Notes: generated from the sequence alone by a model not told the origin. Shown: positions 1 to 20,872, counted from the first letter of the stretch. The stretch: 64,000 nucleotides of DNA from Myxococcus stipitatus DSM 14675 (GCF_000331735.1 NC_020126.1:2542001-2606000); one strand, 5' to 3'. Translations and numbers: made by a program.

Positions 1-2819
1 GCGCGGTCCGAGAAGACGAGCCACGGCAGGCCCTTCCTCGCGTCCGCCGCGGCGGACAGCAGCGGCGCGGACTCCTTCCACACCGGCAGGTAGAACCAGG
101 AGGCGAGGTCGGAGCGCTTCTCCAGGGAGCCTCGCTGCGCGCGCTTGCCCTGGCTGGGGGCGCGCATGTCCACCCAGTAGCGCTGACGCTCGAACGGGTA
201 GGTGGGCAGGGGCTCGCGGCGGCGCGTCTCCGCGGCGAAGTAGTCGGGCGTGGTGACGCCGAGCAGCCAGAGGTTGCCCAGCGTGCGCAGCAGGAACTCC
301 TGGCCCGGCGTCGCGTCTCCCGGCGCGGGCATGGTGGTCTGCATGGACTGGCCCGGCTGCTTGCGCGGGTGCCAGCGCGCGAGCGACTGGAGCGCCTTGC
401 CGGGGCCGACCTCGAGCAGCACGGCCTCCGGCTCCTTGAGCAGCTCCTCCACGCCGTCGGCGAAGCGCACGGCGCGGCGCAGGTGCTGGGCCCAGTAGTC
501 GGGGTCCGCGGCCTGCGCGGGCGTGAGCCAGGTGCCGGTGAGGTTGGAGATGATCTTCACCGTGGGCGCGGAGCGGCGCACCTTCGCCACGGCGTCGCGG
601 AACGGCGCGAGGATGGGCTCCATCATCGCGGAGTGGAACGCGTGCGAGGTCCGCAGCCGGCGGCACAGCACGTCCTTGGCGGCGAGCTGCTTCTCCAGCG
701 CGGCGATGTCCGCCTCGGCGCCGGACACCACGCACGAGGCGGTGGAGTTGGCCGCGGCGAGCTCCAGGCCCTGACCCAGCAGCGGCAGGAGGTCGCGCTC
801 CGCGAGCTGCACGGAGAGCATGGCGCCCGTGGGAAGGCTCTGCATGAGCCGGCCGCGCAGGGCGATGAGGTCCAGCGCGTCATCCAGCGAGAACACGCCG
901 GCCAGGCACGCGGCCACGTACTCGCCCACGCTGTGGCCAATCAGGGACTCCGGCTGGAGGCCCCAGGACATGAGCAGCTTCGCCGTCGCGTACTCGACGG
1001 CGAAGAGCGCGGGCTGGGTGAGGGCCGTCTGCTCCAGCTTCTTCGCGGCCTGCGCGTCGTCGGGGCTCGCGTCGAGGAGCAGCGGACGGAGGTCCAGGTC
1101 ATGGCGCTTCTTGAGCGCGCCCAGGCACGTGTCCAGCTCCTGGCGGAACACGGCCTCGGCCTTGTAGAGGGCGGACGCCATGCCGGGGTGCTGCGAGCCC
1201 TGGCCCGGGAACATGAACACGATGGGCCGGTTCACCGGCTCCTGGACGCGGGTGATGACGCGGTCCGGGGACAGCGTGGCGAGCGCGCTGGCCGCGTCCC
1301 GCGTGTCGCGGCACACCAGGTAGCGGCGGTGGTCGAACACCTTGCGGCCGGAGTGGAGCGTGTAGGCCACGTCCGCCAGGTCGAGCGTGGGGTTCTTCTG
1401 GAGGTGCTCGGCCAGCTGCGAGGTCATCACCTCGAGCGCCGCGTCGGAGCGGGCCGACAGCACCAGGAGCTGCAGGTCTCTCGACTGCGTGGTGGCCTGG
1501 CGCTCCGGAGCCTCCTCGAGCACGACGTGGGCGTTGGTGCCGCCCAGGCCGAAGGAGCTCACGCCCGCGCGCCGGGGGGCGGGCGCGTTCCAGTCGCTCA
1601 GCCGGGCGTTGACGTAGAAGGGGCTGCTGGCGAAGTCGATTTCGGGGTTGGGCTTCTCGAAGTGGAGGCTGGGCGGCAGCTGCTTGTGCTCCAGCGAGAG
1701 CACCGTCTTGATGAGTCCGGCGACTCCGGCGGCCGTGTCCAGGTGGCCGAGGTTGCCCTTCACCGCGCCGACGGCGCAGAAGCCCTTCTTGTCGGTGTCC
1801 CGACGGAAGGCCTGGGTGAGCGCGCGGATCTCGATCGGGTCGCCCATGGGGGTGCCCGTGCCGTGCGCCTCGAGGTAGGAGATGGAGTCCGCGCTGACGC
1901 CGGCGACGGCCTGGGCCAGGGAGATGACCTCCGCCTGTCCGTCCACGCTGGGCGCGGTGTAGCCGACCTTGTCGGAGCCGTCGTTGTTGAGCGCGCCGCC
2001 GCGAATCACAGCGTGGATGCGGTCCCCATCCGCGATGGCATCCGCCAGGCGCTTGAGCACCACCACGCCCGCGCCGCTGCCACCCACGGTGCCCTGGGCC
2101 TTGGCGTCGAAGGGACGGCAGTGGCCATCCGGCGAGCCGATGCCGCGCTCGTTGTAGAGGAAGCCCGTCTTCTGCGGCACGGTGATGGTGACGCCGCCGG
2201 CCAGGGCCATGTCGCACTGGTGGCTGAGCAGGCTCTGGCAGGCGTGAATCACCGCCACGAGCGACGTGGAGCACGCCGTCTGGACCGTCACCGCCGGGCC
2301 CTTGAGGTTCAGCTTGTAGGCGACGCGCGTGGCCAGGTGGTCGTTCTTGTTGTGGATGACGGCCTGGAACGCGCTCACCGTCCCCGTCAGGTGGCCCGCG
2401 GAGGAGAGGTTGTTGAGCAGGTAGCCGTTGGCGCCCGCGCCCGCGTACACGCCGATGGGCCCCTCGTAGCGCGAGGGGTCGTAACCGGACCGCTCCAGCG
2501 CCTCCCATGCGGCTTCCATGAAGATGCGCTGCTGCGGGTCGGTGATCTCCGCCTCGCGCGGGGAGAAGTCGAAGAAGCGCGCGTCGAAGAGCTCGATGCC
2601 CTCCAGGACGCCGCGGGCCTTGACGTACTTCGGGTCTCGAAGCTCCGCGGGGTCGATGACGGCCCGGTCAAGCTCCTCGTCCGAGAAGAACTTGATGGAC
2701 TCGACGCCTCCGCGGAGGTTCTGCCAGAACTCCTCGAGGGTGGTGGCCCCCGGGAACCGGCACGCCATGCCAATGATTGCAATCCCCTCGAGCTGCGTGG
2801 ACTCCTGCTCAACGCTCAT
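1..2819 (-). CDS. Type I polyketide synthase, KS-AT and start of a further domain (partial, C-terminus outside window)
   Basis: This PKS extends the chain delivered by the preceding NRPS module with a malonyl unit. It begins directly with a ketosynthase (about residues 10-430). The KS has the active-site Cys at residue 183 in TACSTS, then HGTGT and GNLGH. An acyltransferase follows (about 530-850) with the GHSVG Ser near residue 630. Its substrate motif is HAFH (about 727), the malonyl-CoA signature, not YASH. After the post-AT YWVD linker a stretch ending in WLVFSD resembles the structural half of a ketoreductase, so KR and ACP probably lie beyond the window. The frame is still open at base 1, with 939 codons visible. 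The ATG overlaps the stop of the upstream NRPS gene (ATGA), implying translational coupling. There is no N-terminal docking segment, since the KS starts within the first ten residues. Confidence 0.95.
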   Translation of the reverse strand, partial: MSVEQESTQLEGIAIIGMACRFPGATTLEEFWQNLRGGVESIKFFSDEELDRAVIDPAELRDPKYVKARGVLEGIELFDARFFDFSPREAEITDPQQRIFMEAAWEALERSGYDPSRYEGPIGVYAGAGANGYLLNNLSSAGHLTGTVSAFQAVIHNKNDHLATRVAYKLNLKGPAVTVQTACSTSLVAVIHACQSLLSHQCDMALAGGVTITVPQKTGFLYNERGIGSPDGHCRPFDAKAQGTVGGSGAGVVVLKRLADAIADGDRIHAVIRGGALNNDGSDKVGYTAPSVDGQAEVISLAQAVAGVSADSISYLEAHGTGTPMGDPIEIRALTQAFRRDTDKKGFCAVGAVKGNLGHLDTAAGVAGLIKTVLSLEHKQLPPSLHFEKPNPEIDFASSPFYVNARLSDWNAPAPRRAGVSSFGLGGTNAHVVLEEAPERQATTQSRDLQLLVLSARSDAALEVMTSQLAEHLQKNPTLDLADVAYTLHSGRKVFDHRRYLVCRDTRDAASALATLSPDRVITRVQEPVNRPIVFMFPGQGSQHPGMASALYKAEAVFRQELDTCLGALKKRHDLDLRPLLLDASPDDAQAAKKLEQTALTQPALFAVEYATAKLLMSWGLQPESLIGHSVGEYVAACLAGVFSLDDALDLIALRGRLMQSLPTGAMLSVQLAERDLLPLLGQGLELAAANSTASCVVSGAEADIAALEKQLAAKDVLCRRLRTSHAFHSAMMEPILAPFRDAVAKVRRSAPTVKIISNLTGTWLTPAQAADPDYWAQHLRRAVRFADGVEELLKEPEAVLLEVGPGKALQSLARWHPRKQPGQSMQTTMPAPGDATPGQEFLLRTLGNLWLLGVTTPDYFAAETRRREPLPTYPFERQRYWVDMRAPSQGKRAQRGSLEKRSDLASWFYLPVWKESAPLLSAAADARKGLPWLVFSDR

Positions 2820-5800
2820 CGCTTCACCCGTCCTGCCTTGATGGCCTGTGCCTGTTGCTGCATCGCCTGGCGCTGCTTGCGCGCGCGCTCGTCCTGGACT
2901 TCCCGCGAACGTGCGCCCGCTTCCGGCTGCTGTGTCTGCTGGAGGTACTTCGAGAGCGACGCGACGGTGGGGTGCTGGAAGAGCTCCACCATGGAGAGCC
3001 TCCGTCCGAACGCCGCCGAGAGCTTCTCGTGGACCTGGACCATGAGGAGCGAGTGCCCCCCGAGGTCGAAGAAGTTGCTGTGCAGTCCGACGCGGTCGAC
3101 CTTGAGGGCCTCGCGCCAGATGTCCGCGATGGTCGACTCCACGGCCGTGCCGGGAGCGATGTACGGCGCCGCGTCCGCGAGGACGGCCTTGGGGTCCGGC
3201 AGCGCCGCGCGGTCCAGCTTGCCGTTGCGCGTGAGCGGCATCCGGTCCAGCGGCACGAGCGCCGAGGGGACCATGTACTCGGGCAGCATCTCGCGCAGGA
3301 AGCCCCGCAGCTGGGTGGCCAGCTCGCGCCCCGCGCCCTCCGAGCCCGCGGGCAGTCCGCGCCGAGGCACGAAGTAACCGGCCAGGTGCGCGTCGCCCGC
3401 CGCCGTCTCGCGCACCACCACCACCGTCTCGCCGACCTCGGGGTGGACGCGCATGAGCGACTCGATTTCGCCCAGCTCGATGCGGAAGCCGCGCAGCTTC
3501 ACCTGGTGGTCGGCGCGGCCCAGGAAGTCGACGCGGCCGTCCTCGCGGAAGCGGCCCAGGTCGCCCGTGCGGTAGAGCCGCGCACCGGGAGCCACGCCGA
3601 AGGGGTCCGGCACGAAGCGCTCCGCCGTCAGCTCCGGTGCGCTCGCGTAGCCCCGGCCCACACCCGCGCCGCCGATGAAGAGCTCTCCCACCGCGCCCAC
3701 CGGCACGGGCCGCTGGTTCCGGTCGAGCAGGTGCACGCGCATGTTGCCCAGCGGCCCGCCGATGGTCGGCTCCAGCGACTCGTGGGCCGCGCAGGCCGTC
3801 GCATCCACCGTGCACTCGGTGGGGCCGTAGACGTTGACGAAGCGCGTGCGCTCGCGCCGCGCCAGCTCCGTCCAGGTGCGCGGGTCGATGGCCTCGCCGC
3901 CCACCAGCACCAGCGAGGGCGAGCTCTCCGGGTCGCTGCCCAGGCCCTTCGCCACCAGGGGCACGAGCAGGGAGGGCGTGCAGTCCAGCACGTCCAGGCG
4001 GTGCGTGCGGACGTACTCACACAGCCGTCCGGCGTCGGGGCGCACCTCCTCCGGGATGATGTGGAGCGTGTGGCCGTGCAGCAGCTGAATCCACTGCTTC
4101 ACCGAGGCGTCGAAGACGAGCGGCGCGTTGACGCTCACGCGCAGGCCGGGGCCTCGATTGCCGTAGACCGCCTCCTGGAGCGCCGCGGCCAGGTTCACCA
4201 CGGAGCGGTGCTGAATCATCACGCCCTTGGGGCGCCCCGTGGAGCCGGAGGTGAAGAGGACGTAGGCCAGGTGGTCCGGACCCACGAGCGGCTCGGGCGC
4301 CGTGTCCTGTTCGCGCGCGATGTCCCCGGCGTCGGCATCCAGCCGGATGAGCCGGGTGAGTCCCTCCGGCAGGAGCGCGCCGAGCGGGGTGCTCGTCACC
4401 AGGAAGGGCGCGTCGGACTGCGTGAGGATGGAGGCGAGGCGCTCGCGCGGGTACATCGCGTCCATGGGCACGTAGGCGGCGCCGGCCTTGAGGATGCCGA
4501 AGAGGCCCACCATCGCGTCCACGGAGCGCTCCAGCAGCAGCCCCACGCGCGTCTCCGGACCCACGCCGATGCGGCGCAGGTGCCGGGCGAGCTGGTTGGC
4601 CCGCGCGCTCAGCTCCGCGAAGGTGAGCCGCTGGTCCTCGAAGACCACCGCCACCGCGCCGGGCGTCCGCTGGGTCTGCTCGTCCAGCAGCTCGTGGATG
4701 CAGCGGGCGGGGGGACGTGCGCGCTCCGTGTGGTTGAAGCCCGCGAGCTGCCGCAGCTCGCGCTCGCCCATGAGGGGCAGCGTGTCCAGCGTCTCGTCGG
4801 AGGCGGAGGCCGCGGAGCCCAGGAGGGTCTCCAGCCGCTCCAGGAGCCGGGTGGCCTCCGAGTCCGTGTACGCGCTCGCATCGTGTTGGAGCTGGAGCTC
4901 CAGGCTCGCCCCGCGCTGGAGGGCGGCGAGCTTCAGCTCGAAGCGCTCCGTGCGGGACTCCAGCCGGTGGACCCGGACGGTGAGGCCGCCCTCGGAAATC
5001 TCAGCGGGCCAGGCGAGGTGCTCGAAGGCGAAGGGGAAGTGACGGGGCTTGCCGTCCTGCCCCTGCATCGACCGCGAGGCGTCGAAGTACTCCTGCCACT
5101 CGACGCCCTCCTGCATCGCGCGGGCGACGCTGCGCGCGAAGTCGACGAAGCGCGAGCGCTCCGGGTATTCGGCCGCGAGGGGAACGAAGCGCTCGAAGTG
5201 GCCCGCCGCATCCGCGAGCCCCTCGTACGTCCGGCCCTCGTAGCGCACCGCCACGGTCCACTCGGAGCGGCCGGAGAGGCGGCCCAGCAGCGTCTGCCAG
5301 GCGGCGAGGAGGAAGGCCGGCACCGGCACGTCGAGGCGGCCCGCGGCGGCCTCCACGGCGCTCCGCGTGGACGCGGAGAGGGTGACGTGTACGTGCCGGG
5401 GCTGGAAGGGCTGCGCGCCCGGCGCGGACCGGCGCGTGGGCAGCGCGGCCGCGAGCGGGGCGGAGAGGTCCCGGTCCTGCCAGTGGCGTCGTCCCGCGGC
5501 GGTGTCCTCGGACTCGAGGACCTCGTTGAAGACCTCGGAGACGTCCGCGTACTGCACGTCGGCCGAGGACACCGGGCCGCCGTTGGCGCGAGCGGCGTGG
5601 ACCTGGGCCAGCTCCCGGGCCACGAGTCCCAGCGTGCTCGCGTCCGCGTTGAGCGCGGGGAGGTCCATCACGAGCAGGTGCTGGTGGGGCGTGACGGTGG
5701 CGAGGTGGAGCGCCGAGGCCCGCTCGAACGCGGTGAGGTCCGCCTCCGTGGCGGAGAAGAGCGCGTCGAGCTTCGCGGCGCGCTCCGCCTCGGAGAGCCC

Positions 5801-6070
5801 GCTCCAGTCGTGTCGCGTGAGCAGGGACGCGGGGACATTCCCCGGTGCCTGGATGGCGGTGCTCGTGCCGGTGAGCGGGTGGTACGTGGTCCGCAGGATT
5901 TCGTGGCGGCCCAGGAGCTCGCGCACGGTGTGCTCGAGGCTCGCCGCGTCGACGGTGCCCTCGAGCTCGAGGACGCAGCGGGCCCGATAGGCCCAGGCGG
6001 GTCCCTCTCTCAGGAGAGACCACAGCCGTAGTTGTTGCGGCGAGAGCCGGAAGCCGGAAGGCGAGGTCAC
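2816..6070 (-). CDS. NRPS: non-canonical C-like (interface-type) domain - A (Glu code) - PCP
   Basis: This NRPS module activates and tethers one amino acid, about 1084 aa in all. The N-terminal domain (about 8-450) has the condensation fold (SPQQLRLW, RHEILRT) but lacks HHxxxDG. Residues 137-145 read LPALNADAS at that site, so it should not form peptide bonds. The A domain (about 490-960) has SGSTGRPKG, YRTGD and NGKLDR. Its specificity residues read DAKDLGVVDK, a published glutamate code. The PCP has Ser1007 in LGGHSL. A Gln/Arg-rich helical tail may dock onto the PKS. I chose the GTG at 6070 because AAGGAG lies 6 nt upstream. The earlier in-frame start at 6163 would overlap the dioxygenase gene. 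The active C domain needed for this module is at the end of the FAAL-ACP-C protein. Together with the adjacent TauD enzyme, this suggests the dead C domain is an interface domain recruiting a hydroxylase (inference). Confidence 0.93.
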   Translation of the reverse strand: MTSPSGFRLSPQQLRLWSLLREGPAWAYRARCVLELEGTVDAASLEHTVRELLGRHEILRTTYHPLTGTSTAIQAPGNVPASLLTRHDWSGLSEAERAAKLDALFSATEADLTAFERASALHLATVTPHQHLLVMDLPALNADASTLGLVARELAQVHAARANGGPVSSADVQYADVSEVFNEVLESEDTAAGRRHWQDRDLSAPLAAALPTRRSAPGAQPFQPRHVHVTLSASTRSAVEAAAGRLDVPVPAFLLAAWQTLLGRLSGRSEWTVAVRYEGRTYEGLADAAGHFERFVPLAAEYPERSRFVDFARSVARAMQEGVEWQEYFDASRSMQGQDGKPRHFPFAFEHLAWPAEISEGGLTVRVHRLESRTERFELKLAALQRGASLELQLQHDASAYTDSEATRLLERLETLLGSAASASDETLDTLPLMGERELRQLAGFNHTERARPPARCIHELLDEQTQRTPGAVAVVFEDQRLTFAELSARANQLARHLRRIGVGPETRVGLLLERSVDAMVGLFGILKAGAAYVPMDAMYPRERLASILTQSDAPFLVTSTPLGALLPEGLTRLIRLDADAGDIAREQDTAPEPLVGPDHLAYVLFTSGSTGRPKGVMIQHRSVVNLAAALQEAVYGNRGPGLRVSVNAPLVFDASVKQWIQLLHGHTLHIIPEEVRPDAGRLCEYVRTHRLDVLDCTPSLLVPLVAKGLGSDPESSPSLVLVGGEAIDPRTWTELARRERTRFVNVYGPTECTVDATACAAHESLEPTIGGPLGNMRVHLLDRNQRPVPVGAVGELFIGGAGVGRGYASAPELTAERFVPDPFGVAPGARLYRTGDLGRFREDGRVDFLGRADHQVKLRGFRIELGEIESLMRVHPEVGETVVVVRETAAGDAHLAGYFVPRRGLPAGSEGAGRELATQLRGFLREMLPEYMVPSALVPLDRMPLTRNGKLDRAALPDPKAVLADAAPYIAPGTAVESTIADIWREALKVDRVGLHSNFFDLGGHSLLMVQVHEKLSAAFGRRLSMVELFQHPTVASLSKYLQQTQQPEAGARSREVQDERARKQRQAMQQQAQAIKAGRVKR

Positions 6071-6076
6071 GGACAA

Positions 6077-6082
6077 CTCCTT
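6077..6082 (-). promoter_or_regulatory. Ribosome binding site fixing the GTG start of the Glu-module NRPS
   Basis: AAGGAG on the minus strand lies 6 nt before the GTG at 6070. It decides between this start and an upstream one inside the dioxygenase gene. Confidence 0.7.
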
Positions 6083-6117
6083 GGGGGTGTGGAAGGAGGA
6101 AGCGCGGTGTCGCGTGG

Positions 6118-7185
6118 CTAGGAGGCGTCCGGGCCAGGCGTCACACCGGGCATGGCGTCCCACTCGAGGAGCGCGGCCATCCCCGCGAGAATCAGCCGGG
6201 GACCCACGAATGAGGAGCGCGCATGCGCGGCCAGCGTGTTCTCGACGAGGAGCGCGTCGCCTCGCTCCCAGGGGAAGCTCACCTGCTCCGCCTCGTACGC
6301 GGCGCGCAGCGTCTCCACCACCTCCGGCTCGATGGGCGAGCCGTCGCCGTAGTACGTGTTGTTCGGCAGGTTCTCCTCGCCGAACTCCGCGAGCAGCGCC
6401 GCGCCGACCTCACGCGGCAGCGTCGAGACATGGAAGAACGTGGCGTGGTTGAACCACGTGGCCTCGCCCGTCACGGGGTGCCGCGCGGCCGCGCGACGCA
6501 CCTGGCGCGTGCGCAGCCGGTTGCCCTCGCGCCACTCGAACTCGATGCCGTGGCTCCGGCAGTACGCCTCGACGGTGGCGGGGTCGTCCGTCTGGAAGGC
6601 CGTCTGCCACGTGAGGCCGAAGTTGCTCCCGAAGTTGCGGACGTACGTGTAGCCCTTCTCCAGGAACCGGGCCCGAATCGCCGCGGGGATGCGCGCGAAG
6701 ACGCGGCGCGTGTCGGCCAGCGGCGTCTCGCCTCCGGACTGCGACGGCGTCACGCAGCAGAAGTAGAGGTGCCGGGGGAAGGCCAGGTTGTAGGACTGCT
6801 CGCTGTGCGGGAAGATCCGCTCGCTCGGCGGATGGTCCGTGGACGTGTAGATGTTCCCGCTGACCTGGGAGCGCGGCGAGGAGCGCTCCTCGTAGGGCAG
6901 CGCCGACTCGGAGATGCCCTGGATGAGGCGGTTCATCGCCTCCGGGGAGTGGATGCCGAACCCCCGGAACAGGATGGCGCCATGTCGATGCAGCTGTGCC
7001 TCGATGACGGGACGGTGGGCGCGCGCCCACTCGGCCAGGTCGATGCCCGGCAGCGTGGGCCGGGCGAGGCGGGGCAGGCTGACGCCAGGAGACAGCTCCT
7101 CGAAGCTCACCCACGGCTCGGAAGACGTGTCGACTTGCCGCCTCTTGCCGAGGGGCAGCTCCTTCTTCTTGGACGTGCTGGTCAT
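6118..7185 (-). CDS. TauD/SyrP-type Fe(II)/2-oxoglutarate dioxygenase, probable amino-acid beta-hydroxylase
   Basis: This 355-aa protein of the TauD/TfdA family should use Fe(II), O2 and 2-oxoglutarate to hydroxylate a substrate. The iron-binding facial triad is visible as His127-x-Glu129 (FPHSEQ) and distal His321 (LAAHAR). The 2-oxoglutarate-binding Arg follows in the GPR motif. The H-x-E form, where TauD itself has H-x-D, is typical of SyrP-like enzymes that hydroxylate carrier-bound amino acids in NRPS pathways. The gene lies between FAAL-ACP-C and the Glu-activating module. Its ATG is one base after the upstream stop (TGACATG), so it is co-translated with them. The likely substrate is PCP-bound Glu, giving hydroxyglutamate, but this is inferred from context only. 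A free amino acid or the acyl chain are alternatives. Confidence 0.88.
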   Translation of the reverse strand: MTSTSKKKELPLGKRRQVDTSSEPWVSFEELSPGVSLPRLARPTLPGIDLAEWARAHRPVIEAQLHRHGAILFRGFGIHSPEAMNRLIQGISESALPYEERSSPRSQVSGNIYTSTDHPPSERIFPHSEQSYNLAFPRHLYFCCVTPSQSGGETPLADTRRVFARIPAAIRARFLEKGYTYVRNFGSNFGLTWQTAFQTDDPATVEAYCRSHGIEFEWREGNRLRTRQVRRAAARHPVTGEATWFNHATFFHVSTLPREVGAALLAEFGEENLPNNTYYGDGSPIEPEVVETLRAAYEAEQVSFPWERGDALLVENTLAAHARSSFVGPRLILAGMAALLEWDAMPGVTPGPDAS

Positions 7186-7186
7186 G

Positions 7187-10100
7187 TCAGTTCTCGGACT
7201 TTCGGCGGGTGTTGCGGAACTTCTCCGAGCGGACCGCCTTCAGCGCTTCCGCCTGGGCCGCCTGCCGCCGCCGCTCCTGCTCGGAGATGACGCCGCGAAG
7301 CTCCGCGAGGGTGACGTGGGGCTGCTCGGCCACCGCTGACAGCACGGCCCCGTAGGCGTCCGCCAGGCGCGACATGGTGACGGCGTCGAACAGGGCGGTG
7401 CTGTAGCGCAGCACGCCGCCGAGCCCTCCCGCGCTCTCGGAGAGGAGGACGGACAGGTCGAAGGGCGAGCCCCCGTCGTCGACCTCCAGGATGCGCAGGG
7501 AGAGCCCGGGGAGCACGAGCTTGGGCAGCGGCGCGTTCTCCAGGACGAACATCACCTGGAACAGCGGGTTGTAGCGGGGGTCTCTCGGAGGCCGCAGCGT
7601 CTCCACCAGCTTGTCGAAGGGCAGGTGCGGATGCGCGTAGGCGCCCAGCGCCAGCTCCCGCACGCGCCCCAGGAGCTGCTGGAACGTGGGGTTGCCGGAG
7701 AGGTCCGCGCGCAGCACGAGCTGGTTCACGAAGAGCCCGATGAGCCCCTGCGCCTTCGCGTGCTCGCGGTTGGCCACGTCCGTGCCGACGACGACGTCCT
7801 CGCGGCCCGTGCGCTCGTGGAGCGTCACGAGGAAGCCCGCGAGCAGCGTCATGTAGAGCGTGGCGCCCTCCGCCTGCCCCAGTGCCTTGAGCGACGAGGT
7901 GAGCGTGGGCGAGAACTCCAGGTGATGCCGCGCGCCCAGGAAGCTCTGGCTCGCGGGCCGAGGCCGGTCCGTGGGCAGCTCCAGCAGCGCGGGCGCGCCG
8001 GTGAGCTGGGACTTCCACCACGCGGCCTCGGACTCCAGGCCACCGGACTCCAGCCAGCGGCGCTGCCACACGGCGTAGTCCGCGTACTGGAGCGGCATGG
8101 CGGGAAGGGGGGACGGCTTGCCCTCGACGAAGGCGGCGTAGAGCGCGCCCAGCTCGCGGACGAGCACCCCCATGGACCACCCGTCCGAGACGATGTGGTG
8201 GATGTTGAGCAGCAGGTGGTGCCGCTCCGCGCTCATCCGCAGCAGCCGCACGCGCACGAGCGGCCCGGTGGTCAGGTCGAACATGCGCCGGGCCTCCTCG
8301 GCGGTGAGGCGGGCGACCGCCGCCGCGTGCTCCGCCTCGGGCATCCCCGACAGGTCGATGACCGCGTCCGCCGAGGCGAAGGGGTCGGCCGTGGCCGGGG
8401 AGTCCGTGGGCGCAATCACCTGCACCCGCCGGCCGTCGACCCAGGGATAGCGGGCCCGGAGCGCCTCGTGGCGCGCCAGGATGGTGGAGAGGCTGCGTCC
8501 GAGCGCCCCGAGGTCCAGGCGCCCTTCCAGCAGCACCGACACGGGGATGTTGTAGGCGGAGTTCCCCGAGGAGAGCTGGTCCAGGAAGAGCAGCCGCTCC
8601 TGCGCGAAGGAGAGCGGGACGTGGGCGCCGCGCGCCACGGGCTCCAGGGGCGGCAGCGTGGAGGTGGGCGCGTCGAGCTCCTCCAGCACCTTCTGGGTGA
8701 GCTGCCGCAGGCCCGCGCCATCGAGCAGGACGGCGACGGGCAGGCTCACGCCCAGCCCGTCCTCCAGCGCGCTCTTGAGCTCGATGGAGTGCATCGAGTC
8801 CAGGCCGAACGCGGCGAGAGGCCGGTCCGCGTCCAGCGAGGAGGGCGCGACATCGAGCGCGCGGGAGACCAGGTGGCGCAGGTGCTCGGCGAGCAGCCGG
8901 GGACGCTCCTCGCGCGGGGCGGCGAGCAGCACCTCGCGACTCAGGACGGGAAGCTCGGCGGCGGGCTCCGAGGCCGCGACGTGCTCCGAGGCGTCGCTCC
9001 GGGTGATGACCTCCAGCTCCCCCCCCAGGTACATGGCGCGGCACGCGCGGCGCTGAATCTTCCCGCTGGACGTCTTGGGGATGCTGCCGGGCGCGATGAG
9101 GGCGACGCCGTGCAGGTGCACCTCGTGCTTCTGCGCGAGCACCTGCCGCAGCGCATCGACCAGGGCGTCGGGCTCCGGCAGCTTGCCGGGGTCCACCTCG
9201 TGGACGAGCACCAGGCGCTCCTCGCCGCCCGTGTCCACGGAGAACGCCGCGCAGCAGCCGGGGCGAAGGGCGGGGTGGAGTCCCTCGAGGCTCCGCTCGA
9301 GGTCCTGCGGATACAGGTTGCGGCCTCGGAGGATGATGAGGTCCTTGATGCGGCCGGTGACGAACAGCTCACCGTCTCGCAGGAACCCCAGGTCTCCGGT
9401 GCGCAGCCAGGCGCCCGCGCCGGTGTCGCCCCGGCGGGCCCGGAAGGTGTGCTCGCTCAGCTCCGGCTGTCGCCAGTAGCCCTGCGCGACGCTCTGGCCG
9501 CTGACCCAGATTTCCCCCACGCGGCCCGGCGGCACGGGCACGCCGGAGTCGGGGTCGGCGATGAGCAACTCCTGGTCCAGCACGCTCACGCCGCAGCCCA
9601 CGTGCGGCTGCGCCTCGTCGCTCGGCGGCGCTTCGGCGGAGACCTCCACGGCGTCGCCCTTGAGCAGCGCGGCCTGCTCGAACGTCCGCACCACGGGCAG
9701 CGCGGACTTGCGGCCGCCGGAGGAGATCAACGTCCCTTCGGCCAGGCCGTAGCAGGGGTAGAACGCCTCCTTGCGGAAGCCGCTCGGCGCGAACAGCTCC
9801 GCGAAGCGGGTGAGGGTGTCGGCGCGCACGGGCTCCGCGCCGTTGAAGGCCACGTCCCAGCAGCTCAGGTCCAGGGCCGCGCGCTGCTCGGGCGTCGTCT
9901 TGCGCAGGCAGAGGTCGAAGGCGAAATTGGGCCCGCCGCTCGTGGTGCCTCGGTGCCGGGAGATGGCCTGCAGCCAGCGCAGCGGCTTGCGCAGGAAGTC
10001 CAACGGCGACATGAGCACGACGGGGAAGCCGCCCGCGAGCGGCTGGAGCACCCCGCCGATGAGGCCCATGTCGTGGTAGGGCGGCAGCCAGATGACGCCC

Positions 10101-10738
10101 TTGCTGTCCGCCGAGTGCTCGAAGCAGCGGTGGATGGCCGCCGAGTTGTGGAGCAGGTTGCGGTGCGACAGCATCACCCCGCGCGGCGTCCCCGTGGAGC
10201 CGGACGTGTACTGGATGAAGGCCGGTGACTCCGGCGACAGCGAGGGCGCCTTCCACGCCGAGGCCGCGCGGTCATCCAGTGTGTCCGTGGCCACCCACGC
10301 GAGCGCGGCCAGCCGGGGTGACTGCTCACCCAGCGCGCCGGACATGCCTTGGATGAACTCCGTCGTCAGCGCGAAGCGTGCGTCCGCATCCGCGATGAGC
10401 GCCTCCAGCCGGGGCAGGGTCCGCGACAGCCGCATCGGGTCCGGTGGATAGGCGGGCACGGCGATGGCGCCCGCATAGAGACACCCGACGAAGGCGGAGA
10501 CGTAGTCGAGCCCCGGCGGATAGAGCAGCAGGACGCGCTCGCCCTGCGCGCCCTGGCTCTGGAGGAAGCCCGCGATGGTGCGCGCCCGCTGGTCCAGCTC
10601 CGCGTAGGTGAAGTGGAGCTCTTCCTCCTCCCCATCCACGAGGAAGGTATAGGCGCGCAGGTCCGGGTGCTCCGCGGCGCGGCGGAGCGCCAGCTCGGTC
10701 ATGCTCGAAGATGAGAACAGCGGATTGGAGTCGCTCAT
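7187..10738 (-). CDS. Lipo-initiation protein: fatty acyl-AMP ligase (FAAL) - ACP - condensation domain
   Basis: This protein starts a lipopeptide chain. An N-terminal FAAL (about 1-585) carries YTSGSTGTPRG, PPYHDMGLIGG and the YGLAEGT block typical of fatty acyl-AMP ligases, not of amino-acid A domains. It should activate a fatty acid with ATP. The ACP follows with Ser648 in GLDSM. A canonical condensation domain (about 705-1140) has an intact HHIVSDG with catalytic His848. The protein ends in a charged helical tail that may act as a docking element. There is no A domain after the C, so the C must work with the next NRPS protein in trans. The start is the ATG at 10738 with only a weak upstream GCGAG. 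Another ATG lies 12 codons in. The gene heads the leftmost operon and has a long AT-rich region upstream. It is a second FAAL system, distinct from the one at 20876. Confidence 0.95.
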   Translation of the reverse strand: MSDSNPLFSSSSMTELALRRAAEHPDLRAYTFLVDGEEEELHFTYAELDQRARTIAGFLQSQGAQGERVLLLYPPGLDYVSAFVGCLYAGAIAVPAYPPDPMRLSRTLPRLEALIADADARFALTTEFIQGMSGALGEQSPRLAALAWVATDTLDDRAASAWKAPSLSPESPAFIQYTSGSTGTPRGVMLSHRNLLHNSAAIHRCFEHSADSKGVIWLPPYHDMGLIGGVLQPLAGGFPVVLMSPLDFLRKPLRWLQAISRHRGTTSGGPNFAFDLCLRKTTPEQRAALDLSCWDVAFNGAEPVRADTLTRFAELFAPSGFRKEAFYPCYGLAEGTLISSGGRKSALPVVRTFEQAALLKGDAVEVSAEAPPSDEAQPHVGCGVSVLDQELLIADPDSGVPVPPGRVGEIWVSGQSVAQGYWRQPELSEHTFRARRGDTGAGAWLRTGDLGFLRDGELFVTGRIKDLIILRGRNLYPQDLERSLEGLHPALRPGCCAAFSVDTGGEERLVLVHEVDPGKLPEPDALVDALRQVLAQKHEVHLHGVALIAPGSIPKTSSGKIQRRACRAMYLGGELEVITRSDASEHVAASEPAAELPVLSREVLLAAPREERPRLLAEHLRHLVSRALDVAPSSLDADRPLAAFGLDSMHSIELKSALEDGLGVSLPVAVLLDGAGLRQLTQKVLEELDAPTSTLPPLEPVARGAHVPLSFAQERLLFLDQLSSGNSAYNIPVSVLLEGRLDLGALGRSLSTILARHEALRARYPWVDGRRVQVIAPTDSPATADPFASADAVIDLSGMPEAEHAAAVARLTAEEARRMFDLTTGPLVRVRLLRMSAERHHLLLNIHHIVSDGWSMGVLVRELGALYAAFVEGKPSPLPAMPLQYADYAVWQRRWLESGGLESEAAWWKSQLTGAPALLELPTDRPRPASQSFLGARHHLEFSPTLTSSLKALGQAEGATLYMTLLAGFLVTLHERTGREDVVVGTDVANREHAKAQGLIGLFVNQLVLRADLSGNPTFQQLLGRVRELALGAYAHPHLPFDKLVETLRPPRDPRYNPLFQVMFVLENAPLPKLVLPGLSLRILEVDDGGSPFDLSVLLSESAGGLGGVLRYSTALFDAVTMSRLADAYGAVLSAVAEQPHVTLAELRGVISEQERRRQAAQAEALKAVRSEKFRNTRRKSEN

Positions 10739-16903: not shown

Positions 16904-17082
16904 GGGTGTGTTCCTCGGTTCAGAAAGAGTGACGCGCCCTCGCTGCCCGGGCGGGGCTGCCGCACGATGCTTTGATGGAACCATGATGGAACCGTGAGGC
17001 ACAAGGCCGACCACCCCTGTCATGGATGACGCCGCTCGGGTTCAGGTCGTGCCCGTCTTCCCGGTGGCAGGTGAGATTCGTC

Positions 17083-18945
17083 ATGTGGACTGGAGCGCTC
17101 CTTGGCTTGTTGATGGCGTCCACCGTCTCCGCTGAGGAGATGCCGCTGCCCTCCGTGGACCTCGGGATTCGCGAAGTGGATGCGCGGGAGATATCCGTCA
17201 TCAGCCGTCGAACGGAGGAGGACTGGTGGGCCCTGGTGGTCCTGAGGGCCGACTTCGAGAAGAGACGGGATGGAGTCCCTCGGGACGAAGAGCGCACCTT
17301 CCCCTTTCGCATCTATCGGAGCGCCGATGCTGGCATTTCGTGGCGTGAAGATGCGGCGGTGACGGAGGCAGTTGTCGAGGCCGTCGAGCCTCACTCTCAC
17401 TCGGTGCGCTCCTGGCACGGTGGCACCGTTGATTTCCTTGTCTGGTACACGCCGGAGGTGGGCCTCATGGCGGGGGTCTTCGACGCGGGAGTGTTGCGAA
17501 CCATCGATGGGGGGCGCACCTGGAGCCGCATTGCGCTGGCACGAGGGGATGCGTTCCGGGTCTATGAACTGGAGCGGGCGGGTGGACGCACATGGATGTG
17601 TGGCTCCACGGATTCCATCTACCGCAGCGATGATACCGGCGCGACCTGGAGAGAGTTGCCGGGAACCCCCTTCAATAGCGACGACCGTTGCGTGGGTCTC
17701 TCCTTTCTGGATGCGAAGAGGGGATGGGCCGCGGGAATGAAAGGTTCTCTGTGGGCAACGGAGGATGGTGGGGCCACCTGGAGCCGCATGCCGACGGCCT
17801 GGCCTCCGACGCCGGATCCGTTCTGGCCCCAGCGGCCCACGGACTTGGAAGACGTGGCCCTGTTCACCCCGAAAGTGGCGTGGGTCCAGAGTTCGGCCGG
17901 TCGATTCCAGACGACCGATGGAGGGAAGACGTGGCACCCGCGCATGCCCGCTACCGAAGACAGTGAAGAGGTCCTCCGGGTCACACCACGAGCCAGTGGG
18001 CAATCCTGGGTCACGGTGGGCACCACGGAAGAGTCTCCCATGCCCTCGCTCAGCGATCAGGACGCGGTGATGGGTGCCGACACGGTCGTGACGATCCACG
18101 GAGACCTCCTTCACACGTTCGTCGCGGGCCGCCGTGTGAGGGTCACCCCTCTGACGACCCCGGGTTCTGGTGTCCTCACCCCGCTCGATGGGGTGCTCAC
18201 TCTTGAGCGGGAGAGGTGGGTCGGCTGGACGGGGGCGAAGGTCTTGCTCTCGCATGACCAAGGACTGAGCTGGTTCACGGTGGGGCTCGTTCCCGAGGCG
18301 CCTCTTCGCACCTTGGTGTTCGCGAAGGACGGCAGGCTCTTCGCACAGGCTCAGTCGGAGAATCTGTTTGTCTCATGGAACCTTGGCCGCACCTGGAACC
18401 GAAGCACCACCTGGCTGGATGCCCATGACTTCGCCGTGGCGACCGGTGTTCCTCCCGAGCGCCTCGAAACGCCGCTCCAGTGTCTGCTCATCGCACCTGA
18501 GGCCGAGGTGACGGTGCGGTTCGACATCTCCGATTGTTGGCCTCGCTCGAAGAACCATCTGGCGCTGAACCTCGCGAATGACCACGCGACCCTCTCGGGC
18601 CGGTACGAGGCTCATCAGAATCCCCTGGAGGTCCATTCCCGGAAGCTGACCCGTGAGGCGGCACGGCGAATCCTCCGTGGTCTCGTGAGCGCAGCGACGC
18701 AGCAGGAGACTCAGCTCCGCTGCGAATCCATCATGAAGTACACGACCCTCATCGAATGGTCCTGTTCGCCAGATGGAACGGACCGCCGCACCCTGGAGTT
18801 CATCGCCTCTGGCTGTGGCGTGCTGACCCCGGCCGACATCATGGGTGGAGGCACGATGAGTGGCGGAGCGGAGCCAACGGACTACGCGCGCGCCCTTGGT
18901 GTGTACGACCTGGCGGTCCGTGCATTGGAGGGCACGGTTCGATAA
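17083..18945 (+). CDS. Secreted Ycf48/BNR-type beta-propeller protein, copy 1 of a tandem pair
   Basis: The 620-aa protein has a signal peptide (cleavage near VSA-EE). Repeated propeller-blade motifs of the S/T-x-D-x-G-x-T/S-W kind follow: SADAGISW, TIDGGRTW, SDDTGATW, TEDGGATW, TTDGGKTW, SHDQGLSW. These are seen in Ycf48-like photosystem assembly factors and BNR/sialidase-type propellers. No sialidase catalytic residues are evident. A separate C-terminal domain of about 140 residues with Cys residues follows the propeller. It occurs also in the next gene but I cannot name it. The start at 17083 is supported by GGTGAG 7 nt upstream. It is closely related along its whole length to the gene at 19037, so the two arose by tandem duplication. 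Role unknown; an envelope or extracellular protein is likely. Confidence 0.8.
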   Translation: MWTGALLGLLMASTVSAEEMPLPSVDLGIREVDAREISVISRRTEEDWWALVVLRADFEKRRDGVPRDEERTFPFRIYRSADAGISWREDAAVTEAVVEAVEPHSHSVRSWHGGTVDFLVWYTPEVGLMAGVFDAGVLRTIDGGRTWSRIALARGDAFRVYELERAGGRTWMCGSTDSIYRSDDTGATWRELPGTPFNSDDRCVGLSFLDAKRGWAAGMKGSLWATEDGGATWSRMPTAWPPTPDPFWPQRPTDLEDVALFTPKVAWVQSSAGRFQTTDGGKTWHPRMPATEDSEEVLRVTPRASGQSWVTVGTTEESPMPSLSDQDAVMGADTVVTIHGDLLHTFVAGRRVRVTPLTTPGSGVLTPLDGVLTLERERWVGWTGAKVLLSHDQGLSWFTVGLVPEAPLRTLVFAKDGRLFAQAQSENLFVSWNLGRTWNRSTTWLDAHDFAVATGVPPERLETPLQCLLIAPEAEVTVRFDISDCWPRSKNHLALNLANDHATLSGRYEAHQNPLEVHSRKLTREAARRILRGLVSAATQQETQLRCESIMKYTTLIEWSCSPDGTDRRTLEFIASGCGVLTPADIMGGGTMSGGAEPTDYARALGVYDLAVRALEGTVR

Positions 18946-19036
18946 GTCATGACGGAACCATGGCTCTCCATGGCTGTGGCCCCGTGTTACTGGATGCCAT
19001 GGCTTCGACGGCCTCCTGGGGCAGGAGCGGTTCAGC

Positions 19037-20872
19037 GTGACGCGTGGTGCATCGGTGCTGCTGCTCGTCATGCTGTGGATGGCGCTTCCCTCGGGCGCCC
19101 TGGCTTCGCCGCGGCCGTCGGTGGACCTGGGTGTCCGCGAGCTGAAGGTCGAGAAGTTGATGGCCATCAGTCGGCGCACGGACACGGACTGGTGGGCCCT
19201 GGCGGAAGTGAAGGTCGCTCCCCAGATGTGGCTTCGCCAGGTCGTCTACCGGAGCGCGGATTCGGGTCGGTCGTGGCACGAGGACCGAGCGTCCTCGGAG
19301 TCGCTCTCTCGCTCCCTTGTCGTCCCGTCATTCCTGTTCGAGAAGCAGTACAGCCCCTCCGTCGACTTCTTCGTCTGGTACACGCCTGAGATTGGCCTCA
19401 TGGCGGGGTACCTTGGCGCGGCGGTGCTGCGGACCTCGGATGGCGGTCGCTCCTGGCACTCCGTCGCGTTTCCACGACAGGACCCGACCTGGATCTACGA
19501 CCTGGAGCGGGCGGGTCCACGCACGTGGATCTGCGGCTCGTCCGGAACCATCTACCGCAGTGATGATTCCGGTGCGTCCTGGCTGGAACTGAAGGGGACA
19601 CCCTTCACTTCCGAGGACCGCTGCATGAGCCTCTCCTTCCTGGACGCGGAGCGCGGTTGGGCCGCGGGGATGCGAGGCTCCTTGTGGGCGACGAAGGATG
19701 GTGGAACGACCTGGCGTCGCATCGAGACGCCCTGGCCCCCGGCACCAGCTCGAGGGCCCGCCACGATGCTTCGCGAGGTGACCCTGTTGACGCCCCAGGT
19801 GGCCTGGCTCCAGGGCTCCGCGGGCCGCTTCCAGACCACCGATGGAGGGACGACATGGAACCTCCGGCCTCCAGCCCCCGAAGAGCGTGACGCGTCCCCA
19901 CGGGTCACGACGCTCGCCGGAGGAAGGCGCATCATCACCTGGGAGTCCTCGAAGCACGGAGGCGCCGTGCATGCGCGGACACCGGCCTTCGGCGAGCCCA
20001 TGACGGTCATGGGGGCCGACACGCTCGTGAAGGTCCGAGGCCGCCTCCTGCACACCCTTCGAGGGGGGCGCCTCGTGAGGACTTCTCCGCTCACCACGCC
20101 GGGCTCGGGGGCCCTCACGAGGCTCGATGGCCTGGAGACCGCCAAGCCCACCACCTGGACCGGCTGGAAGGGGGCCCAGGTGATGTTGTCCCATGACCAG
20201 GGGCGGAGCTGGTTCTCGGTGGGGCGCGTCCCCGAGGCCCCTCTGCGCTCGCTGAGCATCACGGAGGACGACGTGCTCGTTGCTTGGGCGCAGTCGCAGC
20301 GCTCGTTCGCCTCCTCCGATTTCGGCCTGACCTGGGGGCAGAGCACGGCCGAGAGCCCTGCCTTGGCCACAGGCGTGCCGCTGACGGAGCAGGAGTACCA
20401 GCTCCACTGTCTGCTCAATGCGCCAGAGGCCGCGGTGAAGGTGCGCTTCGGCCTCGTCGGCTGCAATGCCGACGAGGAGAATCACCTCGCCCTGGAGGTC
20501 TCGAACGCGCGCGCGCTGCTCTCCGGAAAGTACCCGGCTCGGAAGAAGCCCCTCACGGTCCAGTCGCGCGTGCTGTCCCCTGACGAGGCCCGACGCTTCC
20601 TCCGCGCACTGGTCGCCGCCGCCACCCGGGAGGAGAAGCCACTCGGTTGCGAGTCCAACTCCCGGTACAGGGCCGTCCTCGAGTGGTCCTGCTCACCTGG
20701 GAGTTCCGTGCGCCACTCCCTCGAGTATGAGGCCGAGGCCTGTGGCCCTCGCACCCACGCGACCCTCGTGGGCGAGGCGATGGTGGCGGGTGATTCGGAA
20801 TCAGAGGGCTATGCGCGTGCCCTCGGTGTGCACGACCTGGCGGCTCGTGCATTGGAGGGCACGCTGCCGTGA
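19037..20872 (+). CDS. Secreted Ycf48/BNR-type beta-propeller protein, copy 2 of a tandem pair
   Basis: This 611-aa paralogue of the preceding gene shares its order of features. They are a signal peptide (ending ALA-SP), the PSVDLGVREL opening, blade motifs (SADSGRSW, TSDGGRSW, SDDSGASW, TKDGGTTW, TTDGGTTW, SHDQGRSW) and the Cys-containing C-terminal domain. The GTG start has GGAG about 10 nt upstream. The 91-bp gap after copy 1 is too short for much regulation, so the two are probably co-transcribed. The stop codon is only three bases from the converging FAAL gene, leaving no room for a terminator between them. I see no catalytic signature. Confidence 0.8.
   Translation: MTRGASVLLLVMLWMALPSGALASPRPSVDLGVRELKVEKLMAISRRTDTDWWALAEVKVAPQMWLRQVVYRSADSGRSWHEDRASSESLSRSLVVPSFLFEKQYSPSVDFFVWYTPEIGLMAGYLGAAVLRTSDGGRSWHSVAFPRQDPTWIYDLERAGPRTWICGSSGTIYRSDDSGASWLELKGTPFTSEDRCMSLSFLDAERGWAAGMRGSLWATKDGGTTWRRIETPWPPAPARGPATMLREVTLLTPQVAWLQGSAGRFQTTDGGTTWNLRPPAPEERDASPRVTTLAGGRRIITWESSKHGGAVHARTPAFGEPMTVMGADTLVKVRGRLLHTLRGGRLVRTSPLTTPGSGALTRLDGLETAKPTTWTGWKGAQVMLSHDQGRSWFSVGRVPEAPLRSLSITEDDVLVAWAQSQRSFASSDFGLTWGQSTAESPALATGVPLTEQEYQLHCLLNAPEAAVKVRFGLVGCNADEENHLALEVSNARALLSGKYPARKKPLTVQSRVLSPDEARRFLRALVAAATREEKPLGCESNSRYRAVLEWSCSPGSSVRHSLEYEAEACGPRTHATLVGEAMVAGDSESEGYARALGVHDLAARALEGTLP

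Follow-up and report, generated by a model that had tools for sequence, protein, structure and literature searches.

A TauD hydroxylase and a non-catalytic condensation-fold domain at a glutamate-type NRPS module of Myxococcus stipitatus: a probable variant of interface-domain beta-hydroxylation

We analysed a window of 64,000 nucleotides from Myxococcus stipitatus DSM 14675 (NC_020126.1:2542001-2606000), whose genome of 10.35 Mb forms one contig. Four adjoining genes at its start, all on the minus strand, encode in the order of transcription a FAAL-ACP-C starter protein (7187..10738), a TauD/SyrP-like Fe(II)/2-oxoglutarate dioxygenase (6118..7185), an NRPS (2816..6070) and a PKS module protein (MSVEQESTQ..., 1..2821, start approximate) that runs past the window edge and beyond which the cluster continues with more NRPS modules. 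Pfam found Condensation (E 4.5e-38), AMP-binding and PP-binding domains in the NRPS, corresponding to a condensation-fold domain (4745..6046), an adenylation (A) domain (3218..4687) and a peptidyl carrier domain (PCP, 2942..3133), and a TauD domain (E 8.3e-45) in the gene upstream of it. The NRPS starts at the GTG at 6070 rather than at 6163; the sequence AAGGAG lies 6 bases ahead of this GTG (6077-6082), as it does in the genome of the sister species. Just past window position 1, the same cluster has two other dead C-family domains: an E-like domain with HELAADTAS after the PKS ACP, and, in the last gene, a domain with YSPLVLDRAS joined to a luciferase-like monooxygenase. Elsewhere in the window, a second NRPS/PKS assembly line (20876-55133) has its own FAAL gene and two DVGExGSIDK modules, and two tandem paralogues for YCF48/BNR-repeat secreted proteins (17026-20872) lie between the clusters.

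The original prediction had held that the NRPS opens with a condensation-fold domain reading LPALNADAS in place of HHxxxDG. This was confirmed in the sequence: at the HHxxxDGWS site (5636..5662), both histidines are lost and the structural aspartate, D143, is kept. Pfam assigned the domain to PF00668, and its AlphaFold model (pLDDT 91.3) matched C domains at Z 37, with a value of 37.4 for the RzmA starter C domain; such a modelled fold is by itself no demonstration of function. A PDB sequence search with the dead domain returned ordinary C domains only. The preceding FAAL-ACP-C protein has its own C domain (approximately 7286-8623) with an intact HHIVSDG, and the dead domain is therefore not needed for condensation; it is the C domain of the starter protein that would acylate Glu.

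The intact H-x-E...H ascribed to the TauD gene directly upstream and the A-domain code DAKDLGVVDK also stood up to scrutiny. The dioxygenase carries the triad expected of a SyrP-like hydroxylase (H127, E129 and H321), which is invariant, as is the 2OG arginine R330, and the code was recovered by aligning the A-domain motifs. The AlphaFold model of the TauD protein (pLDDT 89.6) was closest to the structure of At3g21360, which also represented the distant TauD relatives that were all that a PDB sequence search returned (E 1.8e-36), and NCBIfam gave the protein no subfamily name. A paralogous TauD (45 percent) is encoded at 5606447-5607391 of the M. stipitatus chromosome; it adjoins a different NRPS cluster, lies on the opposite strand and has no interface domain with it.

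Among 61 genomes, 12, with M. stipitatus counted, gave a TauD match at E 1e-40 or better. Seven further genomes of the genus have the TauD gene flanked on one side by a FAAL-ACP-C gene whose HHxxxDG is intact and on the other by a dead C-A-T gene, with a PKS gene next, and the A codes read DAKDLGxVxK. Because the same operon, these codes and the lost HHxxxDG recur in all seven, the arrangement is not a chance one. The TauD of Archangium violaceum is 71 percent identical and is likewise followed by a dead C-A-T protein (DTKDLGMVNK), at the edge of a contig. Compared with the closest relative, the sister species, the dead domain had a dN of 0.10 and a dS of 0.30, a ratio of approximately 0.34, and the ratios for TauD and A-PCP were 0.16 and 0.10. 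The dead domain is the fastest evolving of the three, and these values place all of them under purifying selection.

When genome contigs were scanned with an alignment of 14 TauDs (A1), 79 named loci emerged, in Pseudomonas, cyanobacteria, Acidobacteriota, Actinomycetota and others; plasmid records added more. After most of these TauDs, usually within 50-200 bases, comes a C-like domain that lacks HHxxxDG, and after it an A domain. We built a FastTree phylogeny of the C-superfamily domains from these loci, labelled by context and dereplicated to 287. Of the dereplicated dead C domains, the 71 located after a TauD all fell, together with 7 others, into one clade on a long stem (support 1.0). 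None of the remaining 209 C-superfamily domains, and so no catalytic C, E or Cy domain, lay inside it. The seven further members lie mostly at locus edges, and 15 more domains, previously split by the profile, also join this interface clade, which holds the His-type modules of Pseudomonas as well. Across 84 clade members, the second histidine of the motif was never kept and the aspartate always was, the same degenerate state as in LPALNADA of the window domain. The HELAADTAS and YSPLVLDRAS domains both fell outside the clade. In three TauD-C-A cases that retain HH, the TauDs fell in another clade and the C domains among the catalytic ones.

The chemistry of one system within the clade is known. 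Both beta-OH-Asp residues of cyanochelin B (Leptolyngbya NIES-3755, AP017310.1) were demonstrated by NMR and Marfey analysis and were assigned to a hydroxylase fused in CcsFGH before CcsI, and to CcsK before CcsL (PMC12628792). We found that CcsI and CcsL both open with an interface-clade domain (LPALCADTKS and LPSLCADATT, respectively), and the clade therefore includes domains of modules with proven products. When the window domain and those of CcsI and CcsL were placed against all catalytic and E domains in a reduced set, the three grouped with support 1.0, and they still did so after the HELAADTAS and YSPLVLDRAS domains had been added. The full clade was likewise unchanged without alignment columns 118-152, which hold the active site. 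As checks for a long-branch artefact, the motif columns were dropped and other dead C domains were added; the clade held in both. CcsFGH-CcsI and CcsK-CcsL share with the window the module order, the LPxLxADxxT signature and 29-31 percent identity to its dead domain, and cyanochelin B, too, is a FAAL lipopeptide with PKS parts; it differs in being an Asp-loading, cyanobacterial siderophore system. The phylogeny against known C subtypes for which the original prediction had called in advance came out in its favour: the window domain lacks HHxxxDG and does not group with the catalytic subtypes, but only with dead C domains following a TauD, among them those of the proven beta-OH-Asp modules (PMC12628792). 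Its membership of the interface domains, as had been suggested, is strongly supported.

The order of parts within these modules and their joint evolution bear on what such a domain does. Of 77 interface-linked TauDs, 68 have a catalytic C domain directly upstream, and in some the two are fused. The parts of a module therefore come in the order C, TauD, interface, A, PCP, which the window also shows, its dead domain lying between the catalytic C and the A domain of one module and adjoining the TauD hydroxylase. Distances between TauDs correlated with those of the interface domain (0.66) and the A domain (0.67; Mantel p 0.002 for the partial correlation), compared with 0.24 for the catalytic C domain, a value that fell to 0.02 with the interface domain controlled for. 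The A-code class changed 15 times on the TauD tree, compared with a mean of 42 and a minimum of 35 in 500 shuffles. Because the distance correlations, the A-code changes and the module order fit it, we favour an adaptor role for the interface domain, which would pair a TauD with one carrier-bound amino acid. A basic RRxV motif at the N terminus of the TauD was present in 65 of 88 free-standing interface-linked TauDs vs 5 of 28 unlinked ones. In the window enzyme the motif reads RRQV, and its region (approximately 7125-7167) lies inside the tail predicted to be disordered (residues 1-20, KKELPLGKRRQV), which is possibly a docking peptide.

The window TauD falls in a clade (support 0.958) from Myxococcota and Acidobacteriota whose readable partners all have Glu- or Gln-like codes. 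DAKDLGVVDK is presumably a Glu code of the surfactin type. A module further along the cluster has the Gln-type DAQDLGVVDK, which departs from it only in having Gln, not Lys, at the third position, and the sister species has DAKDLGMVNK, which makes Glu less sure for the family. A literature search found no paper giving DAKDLGVVDK or a myxobacterial hydroxyglutamate. From the code and the neighbouring hydroxylase, the product would be hydroxyglutamate.

Other interface modules have other codes, whose amino-acid class names are ones we assume, except for the Asp of cyanochelin B, for which the product is known. The His code DSALIAEVWK occurs at interface modules of Pseudomonas, Variovorax, Methylocystis and cyanobacteria; the remaining codes are Asn-like (DLTKIGE), Asp-like (DGxKLGHVGK, DLTKIGHVGK), Glu/Gln-like (DAKD, DAWQ) or of an SSRD type, the last seen at five loci and without the usual first-position Asp. 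On the conjugative plasmid pKPN-8c6e of Klebsiella pneumoniae, an NRPS-PKS cluster has an interface-clade domain with the TauD downstream rather than upstream. Three Myxococcus loci combine two tandem TauDs with a domain of the interface clade and an A domain of the Glu type into which a methyltransferase is inserted, and modules of the same build occur at five Micromonospora loci and one Acidobacteriota locus (L098), three phyla with Myxococcus. The insert is of the FkbM type by Pfam in one Myxococcus locus (L032) and one Micromonospora locus (L105), and that of the Acidobacteriota locus is similar. Judged from these parts, the product of a two-TauD module would be a multiply oxidised, possibly O-methylated Glu.

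To our knowledge, the documented interface-domain cases concern aspartate and histidine. Interface domains with IbetaH_Asp and IbetaH_His hydroxylases of siderophore NRPSs were reportedly described by Reitz et al. in 2019. Compared by gene order, phylogeny and A code, the window resembles these systems in that a dead C fold and an A domain come directly after a TauD gene or domain, with a catalytic C domain upstream, and its dead domain shares one clade with Pseudomonas His-type and Variovorax Asp-type modules. It differs in its Glu-type code, its FAAL-NRPS-PKS line and its myxobacterial host, and no TonB receptor gene, which we sought as a sign of a siderophore, was found near the cluster. 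Its TauD stands apart from the IbetaH_Asp and IbetaH_His types, defined by an Asp or His A partner, in that its partner has DAKDLGVVDK and it lies in a separate Glu/Gln clade. Glycopeptide NRPSs have in their X domain (PDB 4TX2/4TX3, from the teicoplanin NRPS) another non-catalytic C fold that recruits an oxygenase, a likeness for which only the folds were compared (Z 32.8). X domains recruit P450s and sit near the thioesterase end of the NRPS. The literature describes interface domains together with the hydroxylase classes TBH_Asp, IBH_Asp, IBH_His and CyanoBH (PMC12230676, PMC12971057), of which CyanoBH_Asp1/2 correspond to the cyanochelin B modules (PMC12971057), and antiSMASH 8 contains hydroxylase and interface profiles (PMC12230676).

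Taken with the clade membership, the order of domains and the linked evolution described above, these comparisons support the view that the cluster represents a Glu variant of beta-hydroxylation by the known interface-domain system. We put at about three in four the probability that the interface domain is an adaptor linking the A-PCP that loads Glu to the free-standing TauD (6118-7185), with PCP-bound Glu hydroxylated, most likely at the beta position. The A domain would charge the PCP with L-Glu; while docked at the interface domain, the TauD would then hydroxylate the bound Glu, most likely at the beta carbon, before condensation. The catalytic C domain that ends the FAAL-ACP-C protein would join the fatty acyl chain to the hydroxylated Glu, and the chain would pass on to the downstream PKS.

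It is rather unlikely that the interface domain works as proposed while the gamma carbon of Glu is hydroxylated, or Glu is hydroxylated twice, the hydroxyl then adjoining the carboxylate of the side chain, as it does in the beta-OH-Asp of siderophores. The Glu side chain is one carbon longer than that of Asp, beta-OH-Asp and gamma-OH-Glu share an alpha-hydroxy-acid geometry, and related Glu modules have two TauDs; beta and gamma are not told apart by sequence. However, where the product of such a TauD enzyme is known, the enzyme is a beta-hydroxylase, and the cluster lacks the nearby TonB receptor. According to the passages of PMC7524897 and PMC7100376 that cite Strieker et al. 2009, the kutzneride hydroxylases make beta-OH-Glu on an NRPS, and as described there KtzO and KtzP resemble the window system as Fe(II)/2OG enzymes giving beta-hydroxyglutamate. 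We know of no interface domain reported for either.

Somewhat less probable still is that the TauD acts on the FAAL-loaded acyl-ACP or on free Glu and that the dead domain is what is left of a C domain that was duplicated and degenerated. In the window group the TauD gene does directly follow the FAAL-ACP-C gene; most interface-linked TauDs, however, follow the PCP-C of other modules, and Glu/Gln-type TauDs at loci L088 and L098 follow internal modules. Because the TauD tree tracks the A code, not the starter, and these Glu/Gln-type relatives serve lipid-free internal modules, action on the lipid or on a free amino acid is unlikely, and a remnant is at odds with a clade that is single, old and conserved and has the Asp in every member, as opposed to separate decays. 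That the dead domain is an unusual active condensation domain using another catalytic residue, as the intact C fold of the model might suggest, is very improbable given the catalytic C domain just upstream in the same module, as in 68 of 77 related loci, and the second histidine lost in 84 of 84.

The adaptor reading of the window domain has a wider counterpart, which we consider evenly balanced between true and false: one broad family of interface adaptors, with TauD-interface-A cassettes in at least five phyla and codes for Glu, Gln, Asn, Asp, His and others, in which a Glu/Gln lineage with two-hydroxylase, FkbM-type methyltransferase modules builds multiply oxidised, O-methylated glutamate. 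The window system offers a clean way to ask which of the two, interface domain or TauD, sets the choice of substrate. If the reading is true, it would supply a rule for predicting from a genome which residues are hydroxylated, and a TauD-interface-A cassette that could be moved in engineering; with a Glu lineage in a lipopeptide-polyketide line, interface domains would be a general adaptor for the hydroxylation of carrier-bound amino acids.
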